Shown here in pieces: positions 9,655 through 46,978 of a stretch of 64,000 nucleotides of DNA. This stretch comes from Rhodobacter sp. (GTDB taxonomy: Bacteria > Pseudomonadota > Alphaproteobacteria > Rhodobacterales > Rhodobacteraceae): positions 1 through 64,000 of the forward strand of contig JAIXXB010000003.1 in the NCBI GenBank assembly GCA_027490955.1, in the 5' to 3' direction. A program made the position numbers and the translations under genes. The notes below the pieces were generated by a model. It saw only the letters and a program-made list of their open reading frames with translations, did no database searches and had not been told where the DNA came from. How positions within the stretch are numbered: position 1 is the first letter of the stretch; each line of letters begins with the position of its first letter.

Positions 9655-10628
9655 CCCGCTTGCGGCTGATATCTACCTTAACCCGCGCCTTATGTGGCGC
9701 GGGTTTTGCCTTGCCCGCATGGGCCTTGGATTTGGCCCTGCCTGTTGACTGCACTTTGGGCGAAACCTGCTATATCCAGCAGTATTTCGACCATGATCCC
9801 AGCGCGGCATGGGGTGATTTCACCTGCGGCACGCTCGCCTATGATGGGCATGATGGCACAGATTTTGCCGTGCCCACCCGCGCGGCGATGGAAAGCGGCG
9901 TGGCTGTGCTGGCTTCGGCGGCGGGAACGGTTGCGGGTATCCGCGATGGGGTGGAAGATTTCGCGCCAAAGGTCGATGGCAAGGAATGCGGCAATGGCGT
10001 GGTGATTGACCATGGCGGTGGCTGGCAGACGCAGTATTGCCATATGCGCATGGGTTCGGTGCGCGTCAAAGTGGGCGATGCCGTGGATCAGGGCACGCCC
10101 TTGGGGCTGATCGGGCAATCGGGCATGGCGGAATTTCCCCATGTGCATTTGGCGGTGCGCAAAGATGGCGTCGAAGTTGACCCCTTTGCCCCAAGCACCA
10201 GCAACACCTGCGATATGTCCCGCGCCGATGTCGCACGCGATGATCTGTGGGGGCCGCAGATCACCTATCAGGCGGGCGGCATTATTGGTGCAGGATTCGC
10301 CACTGCTGTCCCCGAATTTGAGGCGATAAAATCAGGGCTAAGCAGCCCCGCCAGCCTGCCTGCGGCCAGCCCTGCCTTGGTGCTGTGGGTCTATCTGTTT
10401 GGCGCAAAGGCAGGCGATGCGATGGTGTTTGAAATATCTGGCCCCGCAGGGCGCATCATGGCCGAACGCGTGGTGATCGAAAAGAACCAAGCGCTGCTTT
10501 TTCGCGCGGTGGGTCGCAAAATGCGCGCCACTGGCTGGCCCGAGGGGGCCTATGCAGGCACGGCGCGGCTGATGCGCGGGGCGAGCGAGTTGGGCAGCAC
10601 TGCAGTGACCTTGACCATCACACCCTAG
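9651..10628 (+). CDS. M23-family (LytM-type) metallopeptidase, exported
   Basis: Probable periplasmic peptidoglycan endopeptidase. The GTG start overlaps the clpA stop (GTGA), giving 325 residues with a signal peptide ending near AWA at 23-25. Zinc ligands of the M23 fold are visible: H67 and D71 in GHDGTDF, and H164 and H166 in HVHLAV, with the usual GxVVIDHGGGWQTQYCH strand between them. The last 110 residues form a beta-rich C-terminal domain without a recognised family. All four metal residues are present, so it is likely active, unlike degenerate EnvC/NlpD-type homologues. Co-transcription with clpA is likely. Confidence 0.88.
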   Translation: MTRLRLISTLTRALCGAGFALPAWALDLALPVDCTLGETCYIQQYFDHDPSAAWGDFTCGTLAYDGHDGTDFAVPTRAAMESGVAVLASAAGTVAGIRDGVEDFAPKVDGKECGNGVVIDHGGGWQTQYCHMRMGSVRVKVGDAVDQGTPLGLIGQSGMAEFPHVHLAVRKDGVEVDPFAPSTSNTCDMSRADVARDDLWGPQITYQAGGIIGAGFATAVPEFEAIKSGLSSPASLPAASPALVLWVYLFGAKAGDAMVFEISGPAGRIMAERVVIEKNQALLFRAVGRKMRATGWPEGAYAGTARLMRGASELGSTAVTLTITP

Positions 10629-10687
10629 CCCTGCACCGCCCTAGCCCTGCACCGCAATAGCCTTGCGCCGCAATAGCTTTGCGTCAG
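10624..10687. repeat. Four tandem copies of a 16-bp unit
   Basis: Copies at 10624-10639, 10640-10655, 10656-10671 and 10672-10687. The first two are identical (CCTAGCCCTGCACCGC); the third and fourth diverge (AATAGCCTTGCGCCGC, AATAGCTTTGCGTCAG). The stop codon TAG of the M23 peptidase gene is inside the first copy. The array fills most of the 88 bp between two convergent genes. Confidence 0.85.
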
Positions 10688-10716
10688 CGCTTCCTGCTCG
10701 CTCGCCTGCAGATGCG

Positions 10717-12270
10717 CTAGCGTTCGGTCAGTTTCAACTCGATCCGCCGATTTTGCGCGCGCCCTTCGGGGGTGGATTGGTCAGCCACGGGGCGGTATTC
10801 GCCAAAACCTGTGGCCGCAAGGCGGGATGGATCAAAGCCAAGCTGATCTTGCATATAGCGCACCACCGACAGCGCCCGCGCTTGGGACAATTCCCAATTG
10901 TCGCGAATTGGGCCTGTGCCTGTCAGCGGCACGTTATCGGTATGGCCATCCACACGGATGATCCAATCGATACTGGGGGGGATTTGGCTGGAAATCTCGT
11001 TCAAAATCTCGACCACACCTGCAATTTGCGCTTGGCCTTCGGGGGCCAAATCGGCCGAACCTGCGGTGAACAAAACCTCGGAGGAAAAGACAAAGCGGTC
11101 ACCGACCACGCGCACGCCTTCGCGGCCCGCCAAAAGCGTGGAAAGCTGGCCAAAGAATTCCGACCGAAAGCGCGACAGGTTTTGATTTTCCGCCTCAAGA
11201 CGCTTGCGTTCTGCCTCTTCCAGTTCGGCGCGGCGTTTCTGTTCGCCCGCCACGCGCGCAAGGGCGGCATTCAGCTGGCTGCCCAGCGCCTCAATCTGTA
11301 CCTTTTTGTCGGCATCGGCCTGCGCAGACACATCCAGCATGGCCTGCAACTGGGTCAGTTGGCTGCGCAGCGCGGTGATTTGCTGGTTCAAAAGGGCCAG
11401 CTTACGTTCGGCCGCAAGGGCGCGAGACTGCTCGGCCGACAGCGCAGTTTCTGCAGCGGCCAGCAGGGCCTTTTTGCGTTCTTCCTCGGTTGGCAGTTTG
11501 GCCGCATCCGTCGCGGCAGCGGCCAGCAGGGTTAGGGTCTCCTCGGCGCGTTTGCGTTCCTCTTCCAAGCTCAGCGTCATCGCCGTGATTTCGTCATCGG
11601 CATTTTTCAACTTGTCGCGCAGCGCCTGCAAAGCGGCCGCATCGGCAAGGCGCGCGGCCTCGCTATCGTCTACCGCCACCTCACCTGCCGATGATTTCAA
11701 ATCATTCAGCAGCGCCTCCAGCGCCTCGCGCCGCGCGGCGGCAAGGCGGGCTTGTTCCTGTGCTGCGTCCACCTCTTGGCGCGCCTGCGCCAAGGCCAAA
11801 TCCAGCGCCTCTTTTTCAGAAAGCTGCTCTTTCAGGCTGTCCACTTGCGCCAAGGCCGTATCGCGCTGCGACAGCAAGGACGCCAGTTGCGATTCAAATG
11901 AGGTGATCTTGGTCTGCGCCTCGGCAAGGGCGGCTTCACGCTCGCCCAAAGTGGTGTTCAGCGTGGCAATCAATTCCGATTGCTGGGCATCGCGCGCCTT
12001 TGCTGCATCCAGATCGGCAGTCAGGCCTGTCACCTGCGCGCCCAATTCTTCGGCCCGTTTCTTTTCCAACCCCAGCGCATTTGCCAAATCGGCCACCTGC
12101 GCAGTCAGGGAAGAAAGCTCGTTATCTTGGGTGGTGATCGTGTCGCGCAGCACCGATTGCATCACGGTGAAAATGGTCAGCACGAACATCAGCACCATCA
12201 GCAAAACAGTCACGGCATCCACAAAGCCGGGCCATATCATGGCGCTGTCGCGTTTTGGGCGCAGAGCCAT
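10717..12270 (-). CDS. MotB/OmpA-like peptidoglycan-binding protein with long coiled coil
   Basis: A 517-residue partner of the MotA-like protein encoded 4 bp upstream. One membrane helix (about 12-36) carries a buried acidic residue, D18 in WPGFVDAVTV, the position used for proton translocation in MotB, TolR and ExbD. Residues about 42-345 are Glu/Lys/Ala-rich with heptad character, indicating a long coiled coil. Residues about 375-515 form an OmpA-type domain with GHTDNVP, NWELSQARA and EGRAQNRRIELKL, which binds peptidoglycan. The role is unknown; no flagellar, tol or exb genes are nearby. Confidence 0.85.
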   Translation of the reverse strand: MALRPKRDSAMIWPGFVDAVTVLLMVLMFVLTIFTVMQSVLRDTITTQDNELSSLTAQVADLANALGLEKKRAEELGAQVTGLTADLDAAKARDAQQSELIATLNTTLGEREAALAEAQTKITSFESQLASLLSQRDTALAQVDSLKEQLSEKEALDLALAQARQEVDAAQEQARLAAARREALEALLNDLKSSAGEVAVDDSEAARLADAAALQALRDKLKNADDEITAMTLSLEEERKRAEETLTLLAAAATDAAKLPTEEERKKALLAAAETALSAEQSRALAAERKLALLNQQITALRSQLTQLQAMLDVSAQADADKKVQIEALGSQLNAALARVAGEQKRRAELEEAERKRLEAENQNLSRFRSEFFGQLSTLLAGREGVRVVGDRFVFSSEVLFTAGSADLAPEGQAQIAGVVEILNEISSQIPPSIDWIIRVDGHTDNVPLTGTGPIRDNWELSQARALSVVRYMQDQLGFDPSRLAATGFGEYRPVADQSTPEGRAQNRRIELKLTER

Positions 12271-38266: not shown

Positions 38267-38578
38267 TCAGCTTGGGCTGGCCATATCTGAAATCATCGTC
38301 AGATGGCGAATGTCCACGGGCTTGGCCAAAAGTCGCTCCAGCTGCGAGAACAGCGGCGCAAGATGGGGCATTTGCAAATGCGCGTCCAAATCGGCTTGGC
38401 TGCGCCAGTTTTCATAAAAGACAAAACAGCACGGATCGCGCGCATCAACATGATAGTCATAGTTGATGCAGCCAGATTCGGCGCGCGTTGGCACCACCTG
38501 CGCGGCCAGCAATCTGTGCAGCTCGTCGCGCGTTTCGGGTTTTGCTGTGACTGTGCCGATGATTGTTACATGTGCCAT
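38267..38578 (-). CDS. ABM-domain (putative quinol) monooxygenase
   Basis: A 103-residue protein of the antibiotic-biosynthesis-monooxygenase (ABM, dimeric ferredoxin-like) fold. It begins MAHVTIIGTVTAKPETRDEL and has the family pattern TRAESGCINYDYHVD and FVFYENWRSQADLDAHLQMPHL, like YgiN. Relatives act on quinols or as small oxygenases without cofactor, but substrates vary. The ATG (38578) lies 4 bp after the permease stop, so it is the last gene of the sugar operon and is probably translationally coupled; why a monooxygenase belongs there is unclear. Confidence 0.82.
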   Translation of the reverse strand: MAHVTIIGTVTAKPETRDELHRLLAAQVVPTRAESGCINYDYHVDARDPCCFVFYENWRSQADLDAHLQMPHLAPLFSQLERLLAKPVDIRHLTMISDMASPS

Positions 38579-38582
38579 CACA

Positions 38583-39536
38583 TCACCGCTTTTGGCTTAG
38601 GGCGACGGCAAGGATGATGATCCCGCCCCGCGCAATCAGTTGCTGGCTAAACTCTAGCCCGAACAAAATCAACCCATTGTTGATAAGACCAATCATCATG
38701 GCCCCAACAATCGTGCCAATCACAGTGCCTTTGCCGCCAAACAGGCTGGTGCCGCCCAGCACAGCCGCCGCGATGACAGACAGCTCGTCGCCTTCGCCCA
38801 ATTGAAAACGGCCCGATTGCAAGCGCCCCGCATAGAGCATCCCCGCAAGTGCCGCCGCACAAGAGGACAGAACCAAAACCTTCATCTTGATATTGGCGGT
38901 ATCTATCCCCGAATAGCGCGCCGCCGTCTCGCCGCCGCCCGTTGCCAAAACCCTGCGCCCAAACCCCGTGCGGCGCAGCACGATATGCCCCACCCCGCCC
39001 AGTGCCGCCACCCAGAACAAAAGAACAGGAATAGGCCCAACCGAGCCGCCCCCAAACAGCCACGAATAGCCCGGTGATAGGATCGGCACCGCCGCCGTAT
39101 CCGATATCCACATGGCAAGTCCCTTGGCGATGCCCATCATCGCCAATGTGGTCAGAAAAGAGGGAATCCCAATTCTGGTGGTCAGCCAGCCGTTAAAAAT
39201 TCCAACAGCAAGGCCCGTGGCAAGCCCCGCGCAGACGCCTGCAAAGGGGCCTGCCGCCTCGATTGCCATGGCAACTGTCACTGTCGCCAATCCCGCCACA
39301 GCGCCAACCGATAGGTCAATCTCGCCTGCGGCAAGAACGAAGGTGATCGCAATGGCCATCACCGCAATCATCGCGGTCTGGCGCACAATGTTCAAAAGGT
39401 TATTTGGGTTCAAAAAACCCTTGTCGTTCAGGGTGATGGCAAAGACCACAAAAATCGCGACAAAGCCGATATAGATGATGTTCTGCCGCCAATTGGCAAG
39501 CAAGGCCCCCTTTGGGGCAGTAAGTGGCTTAGCCAT
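38583..39536 (-). CDS. Sugar ABC transporter permease (RbsC type)
   Basis: A 317-residue inner-membrane permease of the ribose/xylose/inositol class. It shows about nine hydrophobic helices, with the family signature AAGEIDLSVGAVAGL (about 69-83), IPSFLTTLAMMGIAKGLAMW, and LGGTSLFGGKGTVIGTIVGAMMIGLINNGL near the C-terminus. Only one permease gene is present, so it should work as a homodimer. It overlaps the ATPase gene by 8 bp and is followed closely by the ABM gene. Confidence 0.92.
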   Translation of the reverse strand: MAKPLTAPKGALLANWRQNIIYIGFVAIFVVFAITLNDKGFLNPNNLLNIVRQTAMIAVMAIAITFVLAAGEIDLSVGAVAGLATVTVAMAIEAAGPFAGVCAGLATGLAVGIFNGWLTTRIGIPSFLTTLAMMGIAKGLAMWISDTAAVPILSPGYSWLFGGGSVGPIPVLLFWVAALGGVGHIVLRRTGFGRRVLATGGGETAARYSGIDTANIKMKVLVLSSCAAALAGMLYAGRLQSGRFQLGEGDELSVIAAAVLGGTSLFGGKGTVIGTIVGAMMIGLINNGLILFGLEFSQQLIARGGIIILAVALSQKR

Positions 39537-41118
39537 GGATGGCCTCCTTTGCAGTCAGGGCTTTCTGAATCTCGATTTGCAGGCGGCGTTCGGCGGCTTG
39601 CAATGCATGGTCGGGGTCGGTTTCACTGGCATCGTCCAACTCGGCGCGCTGCAGCATCTGATGCGCGCGCCCATCGGCGATCACCAAAATGCGATCGCAC
39701 GCTGTCAGCAGTTCAGAAAGCTCGGATGAAATCACCAAAACTGCTTTGCCTGCTGCGGCAAGGTCACGCACCAGGCGGATGATTTCGGATTTCGATCCAA
39801 TATCGATACCAGCCGTGGGTTCATCCAGAATCAGAATATCGGGGTCTGTGGCCAGCCATTTGCCGATGACAACCTTTTGCTGATTGCCCCCCGACAGGGT
39901 CGAGACAGCATGATCGCGGCTGGCAGTCTTGACCGAGAGGCGTGCGATCATGTCATCGGTGATAGCCGCTGCGCGTGCGCGGTCGAGCAAACCACCTTTG
40001 GTGATGCGCCCCAGAACGGCCATGACCATGTTTTCAGCCACGCTATGGGCGGTGATGATGCCCTGCGTCGCGCGGGCCTCTGGCACAAGGGCAATGCCTT
40101 GGGCAATCGCATCGCTGGGCTGGCTGATATGCACCAATTTCCCCTTGATCCATATCTCGCCCGCCACGGCAGGTTCGATCCCTGCGATAACCCGTGCCAG
40201 CGCCGAGCGGCCAGAGCCGAGCAGCCCCGCAAGGCCCAGCACTTCGCCTTGATGCAGGGTAAAGCTGACATGGTCGGGCTTGTGCGACCCGCAAAGATCT
40301 TTGACCTCTAGCAAGGCCACGCCGCGCCGCGCCGCGCCGCGCGCCACATCGGCCAAGCCTTTTGACTTTTTGCCAACGATATGTTCGATCATCGTATCAA
40401 TGGGCAAATCGGCCGTCGGCGCGGTAATCACATGGCGCCCATCGCGCAAAATCGTGGCGCGGTCGGCAATGCGGGCAATTTCGTCCATGCGGTGGCTGAC
40501 ATAGATAATCGCCACGCCCTTGGCGGCTAGTTTGCGCAAGAACACAAACAGCCGCTCGACATCCGATACGGCAAGGGCGGTGGAAGGTTCGTCCAGTATC
40601 AGCACCCGCGCATCCTGACTGATGGCCTTGGCAATTTCTGTCAATTGCTTTTGCCCTGCGCCCAGATCGCCGACCAAGGCGCGCGGGTTCACCTCGACTT
40701 GCAGCATTTGGAAAATCGCCTCGGCGCGGCGGATCGAATCTTCGTCGTCGATCATACCGCGCCCATCGCGCGCTTCTCGGGTGAGAAACACGTTTTGCGC
40801 CACAGTCAGCGTGGGGATCAGCGACATTTCTTGAAAATTCATCGCCACACCCGCCCTGCGGGCTGCGTCGGGTGTCAGCGCATCCAGCCTTTGACCCGCC
40901 ACTTCGACAGTGCCTGTATCGGGAATATGCACCCCGTTCAGCACCTTTAGGATGGTGGATTTGCCTGCGCCATTGCCGCCCAGCAGGGCATGCACCTCGC
41001 CCGGCAAGACGTCAAAATCCACCCCGTCCAGCGCCCGCACGCCGCCGAAGGATTTGGAAATCCCCCGCATGCGGACGGCGGGAACAGCGCCCAAAGGGGC
41101 CGAGGCGGCGGCGATCAT
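39529..41118 (-). CDS. Sugar ABC transporter ATP-binding protein (RbsA type)
   Basis: A 529-residue tandem ATPase. The first half has Walker A GGNGAGKST and LGAGQKQLTEIAKAI before LILDEPSTAL. The second half has a degenerate P-loop (LLGSGRSALA), as is normal for RbsA proteins, then LSGGNQQKVVIGKWL and LILDEPTAGID. I take ATG 41118, which overlaps the oxidoreductase stop (ATGA); a start five codons upstream (41133) is possible. The gene energises uptake with the permease and the periplasmic binding protein of this operon. Confidence 0.93.
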   Translation of the reverse strand: MIAAASAPLGAVPAVRMRGISKSFGGVRALDGVDFDVLPGEVHALLGGNGAGKSTILKVLNGVHIPDTGTVEVAGQRLDALTPDAARRAGVAMNFQEMSLIPTLTVAQNVFLTREARDGRGMIDDEDSIRRAEAIFQMLQVEVNPRALVGDLGAGQKQLTEIAKAISQDARVLILDEPSTALAVSDVERLFVFLRKLAAKGVAIIYVSHRMDEIARIADRATILRDGRHVITAPTADLPIDTMIEHIVGKKSKGLADVARGAARRGVALLEVKDLCGSHKPDHVSFTLHQGEVLGLAGLLGSGRSALARVIAGIEPAVAGEIWIKGKLVHISQPSDAIAQGIALVPEARATQGIITAHSVAENMVMAVLGRITKGGLLDRARAAAITDDMIARLSVKTASRDHAVSTLSGGNQQKVVIGKWLATDPDILILDEPTAGIDIGSKSEIIRLVRDLAAAGKAVLVISSELSELLTACDRILVIADGRAHQMLQRAELDDASETDPDHALQAAERRLQIEIQKALTAKEAIHG

Positions 41119-42281
41119 CCGACTGTTTCCCATTTGCCCGTCTCGCCCGACCGCAGCATAGCATCAGCCACCAATTCTGTTTGCAATCCATCTGCAAAAT
41201 TTGGGCTGGGCTGCTTGCCCGATGCAATGGCGCTGAAAAAGTCGTAACATTCCACGATCTTCGTTTCAGAATAGCCAATGCCCAAACCTGGAATGGGCCA
41301 CAGCCCGCCCCCATAAGGATGCGCGGGCCCCGTATAAATTGTGCGAAAGCCGCGCAATTCAGCAGGATCATCGGCCAGCATCACCTGCAACTCGTCGCGC
41401 CGTTCATAATTGAAATGGATCGAACCTTTGGTGCCGTGGATTTCTAGCGTGATGTAATTGTTGCGCCCCCATGCGTTGCGCGTCGCCTCAAGGCTGCCAA
41501 CAGCACCGCCTGCAAAGCGCAGCATCGAGATCACCTCATCATCCACATCGACGGCCGCGCGCTCGCCCCCTGCAGATTTTTCCGATGCCCCCAGTTTGTC
41601 AACGCCGCCTTGCTGCATGGGACGGGTTTTCACATAGGTGTGGGTCATAGCGATCACTTCGGCAATGGGGCCAACCAGATAATGGGCCAAATCCACCACA
41701 TGGGTGCCGATATCGCCCACAGTGCCAGACCCTGCGATGCTTTTCTGAAAGCGCCACGACAGCGGGCCATTTTCATCGGCAGACCAGTCTTGCAGATAGG
41801 TGCCGCGAAAGTTCAAAATCTTGCCAATGCGGCCATCGTCGATCAGCTTTTTGGCCAGCGCCACAGCGGGCGTGCGGCGATAGTTAAAGGCGACCATATG
41901 GATAATGCCTGCCGCTGTGGCGGCCTCGGTCATGGCGCGGGCCTCTTCAACAGTGCGCGCCAGCGGCTTTTCGCAAATGATATGTTTGCCTGCCCGCGCC
42001 GCAGCAATGGCGATTTCTGCATGCACATTGTTGGGGGTGCAGATATCGACCACGTCGATATCGGGGCGGTTGATCACCGAACGCCAATCGCTGCTGGCTT
42101 CGTCAAAACCGAAACGGCGGCGGGCCTCTTCGGCGGCTGCATCGGTGATATCAACCACCACCTTGCGGTGCGGGATGGCCGGTGCGGGCCAGAAAAACAT
42201 CGGCATTGACGCATAGGCCATGGCATGTGCCTTACCCATAAACCCGCCGCCAATCATCGCGACATTCATCACTTTGGTCAT
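41115..42281 (-). CDS. Gfo/Idh/MocA-family dehydrogenase
   Basis: A 388-residue NAD(P)-dependent sugar or inositol dehydrogenase. The Rossmann motif is MIGGGFMGKAHAMAY at the N-terminus, followed by DVVDICTPNNVHAEIAIAA, HIICEKPLARTVEEA (catalytic Lys of the EKP motif) and GTVGDIGTHVVDLAHYLVG with the conserved Asp and His. The C-terminal half is the beta-sheet substrate domain. It probably oxidises the sugar brought in by the linked ABC transporter. ATG 42281 (MTKVMNVAMIGG) has a GGAGA site. Confidence 0.92.
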   Translation of the reverse strand: MTKVMNVAMIGGGFMGKAHAMAYASMPMFFWPAPAIPHRKVVVDITDAAAEEARRRFGFDEASSDWRSVINRPDIDVVDICTPNNVHAEIAIAAARAGKHIICEKPLARTVEEARAMTEAATAAGIIHMVAFNYRRTPAVALAKKLIDDGRIGKILNFRGTYLQDWSADENGPLSWRFQKSIAGSGTVGDIGTHVVDLAHYLVGPIAEVIAMTHTYVKTRPMQQGGVDKLGASEKSAGGERAAVDVDDEVISMLRFAGGAVGSLEATRNAWGRNNYITLEIHGTKGSIHFNYERRDELQVMLADDPAELRGFRTIYTGPAHPYGGGLWPIPGLGIGYSETKIVECYDFFSAIASGKQPSPNFADGLQTELVADAMLRSGETGKWETVG

Positions 42282-42355
42282 GTTCGGTCTCCGAAAAAAT
42301 TGGGGTGCACCTTGGGGCGGGGCAAAGGGCATTGCGCCCGCCCAAAGGCTTTGGC

Positions 42356-43562: not shown

Positions 43563-44384
43563 TCAGACCGCTTTGGCCCGGTTTAGATACTCCCAGCTGA
43601 TCCGAGCCCCTTCGAATGGGTCGGCCCAGCTATCCAGCTCGGCACAAACCCAGCCAGCAAAACCCACCTCTGTCATTGCTTGCAAAATGGGGTCAGTAGG
43701 CACATCGCCCCGATCAAGCGGGGTGAAGGCGAAAGGCTCTTTCTGAAACCCTTTCAGATGCACATACGAAATGCGCTGCGCGTGATCGCGGATCAATTGC
43801 GCAGGATCGCCGCCGGCTGCGGCCAAATGGGCCGTGTCGGGGCAAAAATCTATCTCGGTCAACTCGAAAATCTTGGCGACTTCGGCTGGCCCTTCGACAA
43901 TGGTGGACAGATGCGGGTGATAATGCGCGCGCAGCGAACGGGCATCGGCAAGCGCCTTGATCCGGTCCAGCGCTGCGCCAAGCTTGTGATAGTCGGTCTC
44001 GCGCACCCCATCAAATCGCTTGGCCCCGCCGCCCACCACCAAATGCGGCGCGTCCAATTCGGCGGCGCGGTCGGCGGCGCGGGTCACGCGGGCCAATTCT
44101 TCGGGCAAAACTTCGTCAAAGATGAAATTTCCGCCCGCATAGGCCGCAACCAGTTCCAGCCCATTATCGGCCAAAAGGCGGCGCATCGCGGCGGCGCTAT
44201 AGTCCAGCAAATTGCCATCAAACACTTCGACGCCCGCATAGCCCGCGGCTGCGATATCGGCAAAAGCGCGATCCATCGCCCCAAATGTCCGATAGCTGAG
44301 TTGAGTGATCGAGGTGACGCCCACGGCATTGCCGCCAAGCTCTCCCCAGCAATTGGCGTGATACGCCAGCTTCCACGCTGCCAT
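43563..44384 (-). CDS. Sugar phosphate isomerase/epimerase (AP-endonuclease-2-like TIM barrel)
   Basis: A 273-residue cytoplasmic TIM-barrel enzyme of the xylose-isomerase-like family, close to IolE and related epimerases. Signatures: AYHANCWGE at the N-terminus, GYAGVEVFDGNLL, the metal-binding HYHPHLSTIVE, and DFCPDTAHLAAAGGDP with Asp/His ligands, then SYVHLKGFQKE. It is the first gene of the minus-strand sugar operon, with GGAGGATTAGGG upstream of its ATG. It probably isomerises or dehydrates the product of the linked dehydrogenase. Confidence 0.85.
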   Translation of the reverse strand: MAAWKLAYHANCWGELGGNAVGVTSITQLSYRTFGAMDRAFADIAAAGYAGVEVFDGNLLDYSAAAMRRLLADNGLELVAAYAGGNFIFDEVLPEELARVTRAADRAAELDAPHLVVGGGAKRFDGVRETDYHKLGAALDRIKALADARSLRAHYHPHLSTIVEGPAEVAKIFELTEIDFCPDTAHLAAAGGDPAQLIRDHAQRISYVHLKGFQKEPFAFTPLDRGDVPTDPILQAMTEVGFAGWVCAELDSWADPFEGARISWEYLNRAKAV

Positions 44385-44603
44385 CCCTAATCCTCCGCTT
44401 TGGGCCTTGGCGGTGCAGCCGCCAGACCCCTCCCTCGCACGACCTCCTCAAGCCGCGAGACTGTGATTACGCCGAGAATCGGTACAGGTCAAGTATATTT
44501 CTGCTTATCTATGCCATCTTATGTTTTTTTTCGACAAAAGTATTTACTTGAACGACCAAACTACCGCAGGTATAAGTGCTAATATCTTGAATAGGAGCCA
44601 GTT
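44385..44603. promoter_or_regulatory. Divergent regulatory region of the sugar locus
   Basis: 219 bp between the isomerase and ROK genes, AT-rich in its centre (44490-44580). It contains the inverted repeat AAGTA-TT-TACTT at 44538-44549. A longer pair also occurs: TCAAGTATAT at 44489-44498 and ATTTACTTGA at 44542-44551, which match in opposite orientation at nine of ten positions, about 53 bp apart centre to centre. These are candidate operators for the ROK-type regulator, controlling both directions. Sites were found by eye only. Confidence 0.5.
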
Positions 44604-45959
44604 TTGCCGCTGTCCGCTGAGAAAGCCGCCGAGGTGACCAGTATCCGCAAAAAGGGTCGTCCGCGCACCAGCGAGACGGCAGCGCCATCGCTTGTCGAGA
44701 TTTTGAACCTGATCCGCAGCGAACGGGCGACCACGCGGCAGGCGTTGGAACGTGAAAGCGAGTTGGGGCGCGCCGTGGTGGCAGATCGGCTGCAACTGCT
44801 CTCGGATCTGGGCCTTGTGGATGAAAGCGAGCTGGGCCATGCCAATGGCGGGCGCGCGCCGCGTCTGGTGCGCTTTGCGGAACGGCGCGGGCTGGTGTTG
44901 GTGGCCACGTTGGATCAAACCGCGATTGGCGTGGGCGTATCCGATTTATCGGGCAATCTGTTGACCGAACACCACGAAGCCGCCGATTTGACCGCCCCCG
45001 CCGCGCAATTGGCCAGCAGGCTATCGACCCTGTTCCAATGGTGTTTGGAACGGCAAAGCACCCCGACTGCGCCTTGGGGCATTTCGCTGTCTGTGCCCGG
45101 CACTGTGCCAACCCTGCGCGATGATCCGTTCATGACAGCGACCCCGCCCGTCCTGCCTGCATGGGAAGATTTTCCGCTGGTTGAAACCCTGACGCGCCAG
45201 TTTGGCGTGCCTGTTTGGATGCGCTCCAGCGTGGAAACCATGACGATGGGAGAGTTGCATGCAGGGTCAGGCCATGGCCTGCGGTCGATGCTGTTCATCA
45301 AAGTTGGGCGTCGCATTGGCGCGGGCATCGTATGTGACGGGCAGTTTTATCGCGGCGCGCAGGGGGCGGCAGGGCTGATCGGCGCGCTGCCTGTGCAGTC
45401 AGACGGGGTCACAGGCACGCTTGATGCTATGGCAGGGTCAGACATGATCCAACGCGAAGGGCGGGCTGCCGCAGAGACGGGCCGCAGTTCGGTTCTGGCC
45501 GATCTTTTGCGGCGCGGCACCGAAATCACCCCTATCGAAGTGTCTCAGGCCGCGCAAATCGGTGATCCAGCCTCGGTGGCGATTTTGTCCAAATCGGGGC
45601 ATTTGATTGGGCAGGTTGTTGCGACATTGGCCAATGCGCTGAACCCTGATTTGATTGTCATGGCTGGCACATTGGCCCAGACCAATGACATTTTGCTGGC
45701 TGGTATCCGCGAGGCGGTCTATGGCGCGTCGCACCCGCTTGTGACACGCGATTTGCGCATCATCCGCTCGCAGATGGGCAGTTCGGCTGGGCTCGTGGGC
45801 GCTGCGCGTGTGGCATCCGAAGCTATCTTTGCGCCCAGTTTTCTGAAAGACTGGATCATTCAGGGCAAGCCCATCTTGCACCCTGATTTCGCCGCGTTTT
45901 GCGCGCGGGTGCAACAGGCCAAAGCCCCGCCCGCAATCGCAGCGCCGCCGTCTGTGTAA
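44604..45959 (+). CDS. ROK-family transcriptional regulator with degenerate sugar-binding site
   Basis: A 451-residue regulator beginning at TTG 44604 after AGGAG. Residues about 28-95 are a winged helix-turn-helix (SLVEILNLIRSERATTRQAL, LGLVDESELGHANGGRAPRL). From about 97 follows a ROK fold (VATLDQTAIGVGVSDLSGNL, WGISLSVPGTVP). Key residues differ from normal NagC/XylR-type ROK proteins: the ND of the NDANAAALGE motif is absent (RSSVETMTMGEL, near 208), GEIGH reads GLIGA (near 255), and no CxCGxxGC zinc motif follows. Kinase activity and classical sugar binding are therefore unlikely. Confidence 0.85.
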   Translation: MPLSAEKAAEVTSIRKKGRPRTSETAAPSLVEILNLIRSERATTRQALERESELGRAVVADRLQLLSDLGLVDESELGHANGGRAPRLVRFAERRGLVLVATLDQTAIGVGVSDLSGNLLTEHHEAADLTAPAAQLASRLSTLFQWCLERQSTPTAPWGISLSVPGTVPTLRDDPFMTATPPVLPAWEDFPLVETLTRQFGVPVWMRSSVETMTMGELHAGSGHGLRSMLFIKVGRRIGAGIVCDGQFYRGAQGAAGLIGALPVQSDGVTGTLDAMAGSDMIQREGRAAAETGRSSVLADLLRRGTEITPIEVSQAAQIGDPASVAILSKSGHLIGQVVATLANALNPDLIVMAGTLAQTNDILLAGIREAVYGASHPLVTRDLRIIRSQMGSSAGLVGAARVASEAIFAPSFLKDWIIQGKPILHPDFAAFCARVQQAKAPPAIAAPPSV

Positions 45960-45973
45960 GAGAGGATCGCACC

Positions 45974-46978
45974 ATGACGATTTCCGGACTTGGCCCCCAT
46001 GGCGAACGCGCAGCGCCCCCCGAACGGGTCAGCCTGCTGCCCGAGGATATTGCCGCCGTCAAGGCCGCCTCTCGCAGGGTGGCAATCGTGCTGCATACGC
46101 TGGACGGCGATTGGACGCGGCTGCAGATTTCTGGCATGCTGGGCGTTTTCGGGGATTGCGGCGTTATCGTCACCGAAGTGGTCGATTGCGGATTTTCGGC
46201 AGATCGGCAAGTGGCCGAACTGGATCGGCTGATTGCAGCGCAGCCCGATGCCATCGTGGCCCTGCCCGTTGCAAATGAACAGGTGGCGGCGGCCTTTCGG
46301 CGGGTTTCGGCGGCAGGCATCCGTTTGGTTTTGTTGGAAAATGTGCCAACGGGCCTTTTGCCCGGCTCGCATTACACAGCGCTTGTGTCATCAGATAACT
46401 TCGGCCTTGGCAGAATGGCGGCCGAGGGGCTTGCCCCGCATTTGGCACAGGGCGCGGCAGTGGGCGTGCTGGGATTTGCCACAGATTTTTACGCCACCAA
46501 TGAACGGGAAATTGCCTTTACCAATTGGATGCAGGCCAATCGGCCTGATCTGCGCACCTATGTCATGCGCTTTGCCGCGGTGGACGAGGCGGCCCATTTG
46601 GGCAAGCGGTTGCTGGATGAAAACCCCCAGATTTCTGCCGTTTTCGTGGTGTGGGACACCCCCGCCATGGCAGTGGCAACCCAATTGAACGAGGCTGACC
46701 GTTCTATTGTGATGGCCACAGTCGATCTGGGCGAAGACGTTGCAATTTCCTTGGCGGCGGGAAAGCCCTTTGTCAATGTCGCAGCCCAGCAACCCTTTAA
46801 ACAGGGTGTGGTCGCAGCGCAGACAACGATCCTTGCGCTTTTGGGCGGCACGATCCCCGCATGGATCGCATTGCCAGGTATTCCCGTAACGCGCGACAAT
46901 GTCGCCGACAGCTTTCAAATCATCTGGCGAAAACCCGCCCCCCGCGCGGTTTTGCACTCGCTTGGCCTGACCAAATAA
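45974..46978 (+). CDS. Cytoplasmic sugar-binding-protein paralogue (no signal peptide)
   Basis: A 334-residue protein with the same type I periplasmic-binding fold as the exported binding protein at 42388-43509, aligned along its whole length (for example AIVLHTLDGDWTRLQI against AIVMHYGGNDWSRAQI, and TVDLGEDVAISLAAGKP against TVDLGENVAISMAQGG). It starts MTISGLGPHGERAAPPERV with no hydrophobic signal, so it should stay in the cytoplasm. No DNA-binding domain is fused. The gene starts 14 bp after the ROK regulator. A role as cytoplasmic sugar sensor for that regulator is my inference. Confidence 0.82.
   Translation: MTISGLGPHGERAAPPERVSLLPEDIAAVKAASRRVAIVLHTLDGDWTRLQISGMLGVFGDCGVIVTEVVDCGFSADRQVAELDRLIAAQPDAIVALPVANEQVAAAFRRVSAAGIRLVLLENVPTGLLPGSHYTALVSSDNFGLGRMAAEGLAPHLAQGAAVGVLGFATDFYATNEREIAFTNWMQANRPDLRTYVMRFAAVDEAAHLGKRLLDENPQISAVFVVWDTPAMAVATQLNEADRSIVMATVDLGEDVAISLAAGKPFVNVAAQQPFKQGVVAAQTTILALLGGTIPAWIALPGIPVTRDNVADSFQIIWRKPAPRAVLHSLGLTK

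Follow-up and report, generated by a model that had tools for sequence, protein, structure and literature searches.

A 64,000-nucleotide stretch of DNA from Rhodobacter sp. (assembly GCA_027490955.1, contig JAIXXB010000003.1, positions 1 to 64,000; hereafter the window) contains two divergent transcription units, namely a catabolic operon on the minus strand and, on the plus strand, a gene for a ROK-family regulator followed by a gene for a sugar-binding protein. The regulator (44604..45959, plus strand; TTG start, 451 amino acids) has lost the sugar site of its family. The protein encoded 14 bases downstream (45974..46978, plus strand; ATG start, 334 amino acids) is a signal-peptide-less, cytoplasmic paralogue of the periplasmic sugar-binding protein that the divergent operon encodes. 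The soluble binding protein probably senses the sugar and controls the ROK protein, which would itself be unable to do so, the two thus forming a two-protein sensor. At the sequence level, this proposal draws on the gene pair and its co-occurrence in other genomes, the cytoplasmic N-terminus, the lost ROK site, the retained sugar pocket of the binding protein, and a conserved palindrome. An initial annotation of this DNA had already suggested that inducer sensing moved from the ROK protein to its soluble neighbour.

The regulator matches the Pfam ROK domain with an E-value of 4.4e-31. Its structural model, with a mean predicted local distance difference test score (pLDDT) of 84.6, combines helices resembling a helix-turn-helix (HTH) at residues 23-68 with a ROK fold. 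The best Foldseek match of this model is the operator-bound ROK repressor 5f7q over nearly its full length, with Mlc (1z6r) and the Mlc/EIIB complex 3bp8 ranking shortly after; Mlc is among the best matches by both sequence and fold. By its domain, modelled fold and N-terminal HTH the protein is assigned to the ROK-family transcriptional regulators, and the kept DNA-binding domain and ROK fold noted in the initial annotation are thereby borne out.

Using the motif names that we take to be those of the family (DxGGT, ND, GEIGH and the zinc motif CxCGxxGC), the window protein reads LDQTA at DxGGT, S208-S209 at ND and GLIGA at GEIGH, and CxCGxxGC is absent. The motif tables thus agree with the initial annotation on the loss of the last three. 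The residues expected for sugar contact, ND or HD and the acid and His of GEIGH, are missing, which limits the label "sugar-sensing ROK" but not ROK membership by fold. Mlc and NagC are also without DxGGT and have HD at the ND position, and Mlc retains EIGH and the zinc motif. Because these two regulators share them, departures at DxGGT and ND alone are ordinary for ROK regulators. The unusual feature of the window protein is that the Asp and the GEIGH acid have been lost as well.

This loss was compared between 48 paired ROKs, which are encoded beside a cytoplasmic binding protein, and 17 unpaired ones, for which the fetched stretch holds no signal-less binding-protein homologue. The unpaired set consists of nine proteins beside related binding proteins in Rhodobacterales, five from plasmids, one from G635, Mlc and NagC. 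Locus L036, in which the ROK match falls into two pieces, is left out of the ROK tables, L119 stands outside the 48, and L083 is from the same genome as L035 and is counted once. The binding proteins beside unpaired ROKs have signal-like N-termini, with a maximum hydropathy of 1.63-2.60 (lowest in L073 and L114), while the stretch of L117 contains no binding-protein homologue and in that of L116 the homologue is of a different kind, its start likewise signal-like. None of the 48 paired ROKs retains the Asp of ND/HD or the acid of GEIGH, the GEIGH His is found in four and CxCGxxGC in two. Asp and acid are both retained in 16 of the 17 unpaired proteins. The exception, L118 on an Agrobacterium plasmid (6046-7287), has lost both and kept the zinc motif; its gene adjoins a different sugar ATP-binding cassette (ABC) operon. 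The comparison, with the site kept in 0/48 versus 16/17 proteins, speaks for the earlier proposal that sensing passed from the ROK protein to its soluble neighbour, and contact between the two proteins is what we infer. Loss of the zinc motif was considered as a mark of the split and rejected, as none of the nine unpaired Rhodobacterales ROKs in the comparison has the motif and two paired ones do.

In a tree of 30 ROK sequences, in which the midpoint root serves for drawing only, the paired ROKs lie on one side of a branch with support 100/99. Nearest to them are L109 together with L117, followed by L116, all three with intact sites. L109, from an Arthrobacter agilis plasmid, belongs to a levoglucosan operon with one exported binding protein; its ROK is 36% identical to that of the window and reads DNDANLIALGE, GDIGH and CRCGKRGC. 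Within the paired group, L078 and L106 (Mesorhizobium) form a branch (94/86) whose members retain the GEIGH His and the zinc motif but have lost Asp and acid. This mix of kept and lost residues suggests the order in which the site was lost.

The former sugar/ATP site is not simply eroded. Residues Q105, S209, M213, M215, R237, I238 and L258 are invariant across 32 aligned paired ROKs, and because these positions are fixed with new residues, the paired ROK appears re-specialised rather than decaying. The term "degenerate" in the initial annotation is therefore not entirely apt. The same invariance would be expected of a new pocket, with which the ROK protein might sense a ligand alone (levoglucosan, say, a sugar lacking a free anomeric hydroxyl), while the cytoplasmic protein would have another task, such as to buffer or pass on the imported sugar. 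This is unlikely: since the Arthrobacter ROK retains the usual site, control of a levoglucosan operon needs no remodelled pocket, and the pairing, overlapping genes and matched rates described below link both proteins.

The second binding protein shares 36% identity with its periplasmic paralogue P0003 over 343 alignment columns (E 3e-64). Export was assessed by hydropathy and upstream open frame, not by a trained signal-peptide predictor. In all 40 cytoplasmic copies (39 loci and the window) the sequence GLGPHGER is found at most a few residues past the start codon. The maximum 12-residue hydropathy is 0.55-1.57 in cytoplasmic versus 1.71-2.60 in periplasmic copies. In 19 of the 40 the upstream open frame is shorter than 15 codons, so that no signal peptide fits. 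The window copy has no signal peptide at its ATG, and by eye the in-frame extension up to 45899 contains no hydrophobic stretch. The initial annotation had named an export signal or an upstream start as what to look for; neither was found by hydropathy and open frames, and its description of the gene as a signal-peptide-less paralogue holds in 40/40 copies.

The second copy could nevertheless be exported, through an unrecognised signal or another route, and serve transport as an additional binding protein with another affinity, given that its N-terminal GPHGE arm looks like the one found behind the signal peptide of periplasmic copies and exported relatives. With this arm at the start codon in 40/40 copies, low hydropathy and short upstream frames, export was rejected and is regarded as very unlikely. 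The idea that GLGPHGE serves docking and is peculiar to the cytoplasmic copy lost ground, since GPHGEKAAS or GPNGEKAAS occupies that position in exported relatives.

The model of the second binding protein has a pLDDT of 93.4, and its Foldseek matches are RbsB-type proteins. By predicted fold and pocket residues it is an RbsB-type protein (Peripla_BP_4, E 1.8e-21), without the export signal of such proteins. Pocket columns were located with E. coli K-12 RbsB as reference. H41, W47, N123, R178, W227, D251 and Q272 are identical in both copies, giving seven of 13 pocket columns as compared with 50 of 269 columns overall (p 0.0036), with RbsB sugar-contact positions that are assumed here rather than drawn from the data. 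The equivalent of RbsB D67, which presumably takes part in partner contact, is Asp in 44/44 periplasmic but Ala in 43/45 cytoplasmic copies. An RbsB D67R mutant structure is among the Foldseek matches.

In the binding-protein tree, the root of which is uncertain, one branch (98/100) sets off the cytoplasmic copies (25/25) and another (97/98) the periplasmic ones (24/24). The former are a single group spanning Rhodobacterales and Rhizobiales. As each kind groups apart, the split between them is old, and a recent duplication in this genome was rejected.

The co-occurrence of the two genes in relatives, on which the earlier proposal depended, is strict among the loci collected. A scan with exact peptide patterns, using the cytoplasmic copy as query, yielded 39 loci, which on account of these patterns are not all that exist. 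In 39/39, the ROK gene lies directly upstream of the cytoplasmic copy and the five operon genes are present; 38 loci are divergent and one, L038, is colinear. In 13 of 38 pairs, the end of the ROK gene and the beginning of the binding-protein gene share four bases. Within the order, ROK and cytoplasmic copy are confined to the same five of 292 sampled genomes. Among 385 genomes of the class, three pass the cut-off for levoglucosan dehydrogenase and all three have the pair. In G594, with a dehydrogenase below the cut-off, neither ROK nor binding protein occurs within the 11.2 kb fetched. The class scan gave a fourth, weaker ROK match in G635, which is unpaired and has an intact site. A survey of 398 genomes of the phylum showed no cytoplasmic copy outside Alphaproteobacteria. 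The N-termini of four relatives at intermediate distance (G766, G885, G948 and G910) are signal-like, and these proteins were classed with the periplasmic ones.

Plasmids extend this distribution. Among 72,556 plasmids, the cytoplasmic copy matches 55 records at E 1e-30, of which 13 (H1-H13, at least 44% identity) were taken as the cytoplasmic kind, with N-termini read in five of them. The ROK gene adjoins the copy in 12 of these 13, and the two genes are neighbours on all 12 plasmids whose ROK reaches at least 44% identity. The remaining one, L115 (Ochrobactrum sp., 9658-10996), holds a full-length cytoplasmic copy, retains no more of the ROK gene than its 3' part, lacks transporter genes, and is a rearranged remnant of the operon. 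The dehydrogenase is found at E 1e-120 on 14 plasmids, nine with the pair and five without. In the four pair-less plasmids examined (H62 was left out), the neighbouring regulators are LuxR-type, LacI, an intact ROK and Rrf2-type, respectively. Three Mesorhizobium plasmids carry the pair, and the two that were fetched (H12 was left out) have it in an operon that includes a GMC oxidoreductase and lacks a close levoglucosan dehydrogenase. In these operons, L106 (8329-10969) and L119, the GMC oxidoreductase and a gluconate 2-dehydrogenase subunit 3 replace the levoglucosan dehydrogenase. Since the pair sits there with a different dehydrogenase, it is not tied to levoglucosan. By homology, the annotated start of the L106 binding protein (10100) is some 33 codons late. 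Two-piece matches elsewhere, namely the ROK of L036 (8646-9916), the periplasmic binding protein of L107 (6268-7277) and the permease of L034 (2457-3360), reflect a frameshift or sequencing error.

Both genes are under purifying selection, with a ratio of nonsynonymous to synonymous substitution rates (dN/dS) of 0.04-0.13 in seven pairs. Distances were correlated for seven genes in 28 of 40 loci, 12 having been removed by a length filter. The partial correlation between ROK and cytoplasmic copy, 0.63, is the highest of 21 gene pairs and stays the highest of those involving ROK in 28/28 jackknife rounds. The two proteins are also the fastest of the seven, with mean distances of 0.465 for the cytoplasmic copy and 0.428 for ROK, the other five ranging from 0.127 to 0.251. 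The largest mean distance would suit a functionless residual paralogue kept by linkage. This explanation is barely credible in view of the dN/dS values, the single group across Rhodobacterales and Rhizobiales, and open frames that are full-length in 40/40 copies.

A role at the transporter must also be weighed. The cytoplasmic copy, a paralogue of the transporter's own binding protein that is encoded nearby in 39/39 loci, could inhibit the ABC importer from the inside or pass sugar to the dehydrogenase. The gene follows ROK and not the transporter genes, however, even in the colinear L038. In L078 no periplasmic homologue was found and the ATPase is only 39% identical, although the contig ends a short distance further on. 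The D67 equivalent is lost, and the partial correlation with ROK exceeds those with the periplasmic protein (0.43), the ATPase (0.33) and the permease (0.16). A function at the transporter is accordingly judged rather improbable.

The region between the divergent genes contains an operator-like palindrome, CTTATG-N11-CAAAAG (44518..44540), recognised by its conservation across divergent regions. The pattern CTTHTG-N11-CAWAAG is exact in 33 of 38 divergent regions and present with at most one mismatch in 38/38, as compared with 0.01 and 0.14 in resampled regions, odds that are overstated because the motif was derived from part of the counted set and many loci are related. The 38 regions exclude L036 and L038, which were examined apart. 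A version of the pattern with one more T occurs a single time in the genome of the window, at this site. Outside the 38, the palindrome is exact in L036, L081 and L084 and has one mismatch in L082 and L083; in the colinear L038 it stands, with one mismatch, before the catabolic operon.

Putative promoters with 17-base spacers were read by eye from sequence and alignment on both sides of the palindrome. The proposed promoter of the ROK gene (44548..44576, plus strand) comprises TTGAAC, 17 bases and TATAAG, and that of the catabolic operon (44464..44492, minus strand) TTGACC, 17 bases and TAATCA. A consensus promoter scan of the region picked up neither. Lying between two -35 boxes, the site could serve repression or activation. 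A partly conserved stretch resembling a half-site at 44493-44507, beside the leftward -35 box, may be a second ROK contact.

For the proposed two-protein sensor, the following mechanism is envisaged. A former binding subunit of the transporter, having lost its signal peptide, would stay in the cytoplasm and bind imported levoglucosan or an early product. Sugar binding would change the attachment of this protein to ROK, and the state of attachment would set the occupancy by ROK of the palindrome between the divergent promoters, a site proposed from its conservation. From there, ROK would control the uptake and catabolic operon as well as its own gene. The vacated ROK cleft, with its new conserved residues, may be the docking face. 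By analogy with Mlc-EIICB(Glc), the simplest polarity would be release of the repressor from DNA by the sugar-loaded binding protein. The reverse is equally possible, with the empty binding protein as the ROK-bound form, as in NasS-NasT.

Several points weigh against this mechanism. The structural models are of single chains, and the complex of ROK and binding protein is a proposed one. The loss of Asp and acid needs no such partner, because the unpaired L118 has lost both. In two loci that do have the pair, the palindrome either has two mismatches (L078) or was not found (L079), and its odds are inflated as described. The pocket comparison depends on the assumed contact list, and six of the 13 columns are not shared invariants. 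Furthermore, the cytoplasmic copy is gapped at the pocket-side GIGGPDF loop, and N81 of the periplasmic copy is changed to Ser or Gly. Owing to this gap, the N81 change and the six unshared columns, ligand or affinity may differ between the copies. Finally, fast and matched evolution may be general among regulators.

A broader reading is given an even chance. According to it, the pairs would represent a further, independent lineage of binding-protein-derived split sensors, the first with a ROK effector, in which the site was dismantled stepwise (acids first, zinc later) while the retired transporter subunit assumed the sensing role, the emptied cleft became the docking face, and the module serves at least one other sugar operon. 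If this is true, a sugar repressor that was once a single protein has been divided into effector and sensor, and intermediates survive, as in L078 and the Mesorhizobium L106 with their zinc motif, and binding-protein sensors extend beyond ANTAR antiterminators. Together with its operator, a soluble sensor of levoglucosan might also find use in biosensors that detect sugars from biomass burning and cellulose pyrolysis.

The divergent operon supplies the candidate ligand. Its dehydrogenase (LgdA, Gfo/Idh/MocA family; 41115..42332, minus strand) scores 708.6 bits against NF052479, the NCBIfam model of the levoglucosan dehydrogenase family, with a curated cut-off of 650. As the match begins at residue 20, the true start may be later than called. 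The first gene, encoding a TIM-barrel protein of the sugar isomerase/dehydratase family (AP_endonuc_2; 43563..44384, minus strand), is likely LgdB1-like, fitting in size and place the LgdB1 cluster proteins of about 275 residues described in PMC10066097. The remaining minus-strand genes encode the periplasmic sugar-binding protein P0003 (42388..43509; Peripla_BP_4, E 1.4e-40), a transporter subunit with a signal peptide at its N-terminus, the ATP-binding protein of the sugar ABC transporter (39529..41133; ABC_tran, E 4.3e-55, in two stretches) and its permease (38583..39536; BPD_transp_2, E 1.4e-36). With LgdA, an LgdB1-like isomerase and the ABC transporter, the gene content identifies this as a predicted levoglucosan (LGDH) catabolic operon. 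Family and fold searches named no ligand beyond what the operon context points to.

Two further observations concern the surroundings of the operon. Homologues of the isomerase (63%) and of the Gfo/Idh/MocA oxidoreductase (58%) lie on another contig of this genome (G000:C42:15315-17525) and correspond to genes adjoining the operon in Paracoccus. A small open reading frame follows the permease in the window (38267-38581); in Paracoccus (L105), a putative quinol monooxygenase occupies that place.

The operon resembles the clusters of Kaur et al. 2023, which contain LgdA, an LgdB-type isomerase and an ABC transporter with binding protein (PMC10066097). ROK is listed there among the regulator types near lgdA, and the abstract, Results and Discussion name no second, cytoplasmic binding protein. 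A ROK regulator with a cytoplasmic binding-protein partner was likewise not found in the literature searched, which leaves most subscription papers outside. The plasmid records name the cytoplasmic copies "substrate-binding domain-containing protein" and once "sugar ABC transporter substrate-binding protein". PMC3795266 had already cautioned that sensors of the NasS type may carry a wrong annotation as transport proteins.

The initial annotation knew of no described system with such a division of labour, which was too strong. According to the same paper, NasS of Paracoccus denitrificans has no NrtA signal sequence, keeps the nitrate residues and frees NasT upon nitrate or nitrite, and AmiC-AmiR of Pseudomonas aeruginosa is a comparable ligand-responsive complex (PMC3795266). 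Mlc of E. coli, for its part, is described in PMC3901232 as having no small-molecule inducer and being sequestered by EIICB(Glc), which makes it a ROK protein controlled by a transporter.

Like the sensor proposed here, NasS is related to a transporter binding protein but signal-less and cytoplasmic; it has kept the ligand residues and controls a nucleic-acid-binding partner. NasT, however, is an RNA-binding ANTAR antiterminator in a proven ligand-sensitive complex, whereas the partner in the window is a DNA-binding ROK protein and the complex with it is a proposed one. AmiC-AmiR likewise joins a small-molecule-binding partner to a regulator in a ligand-responsive complex, but AmiR is an ANTAR protein and the ligands are amides, not sugars. 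A signal-less paralogue, partly kept ligand residues and a gene beside the regulator are found here as in both systems. The window pair would work like them, yet is no member of their kind because its partner is ROK and not ANTAR.

Mlc-EIICB(Glc) offers the closer parallel on the side of the regulator, as a ROK repressor is induced by binding a transporter protein instead of a small molecule. Its partner is a live membrane transporter read via phosphorylation, unlike the soluble, retired subunit with its own pocket that is proposed here, and Mlc keeps HD, EIGH and the zinc motif.

In LacI-family repressors such as RbsR, a domain of the periplasmic-binding-protein type senses the sugar for a DNA-binding domain within one polypeptide. 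A LacI regulator lies near the levoglucosan operon of a Klebsiella plasmid that has no cytoplasmic copy. In the window, by contrast, sensor and DNA-binding part are two proteins, and the latter is a ROK. The split-sensor principle is thus known from NasS-NasT and AmiC-AmiR; what appears to be new is a DNA-binding regulator of the ROK family as its effector.

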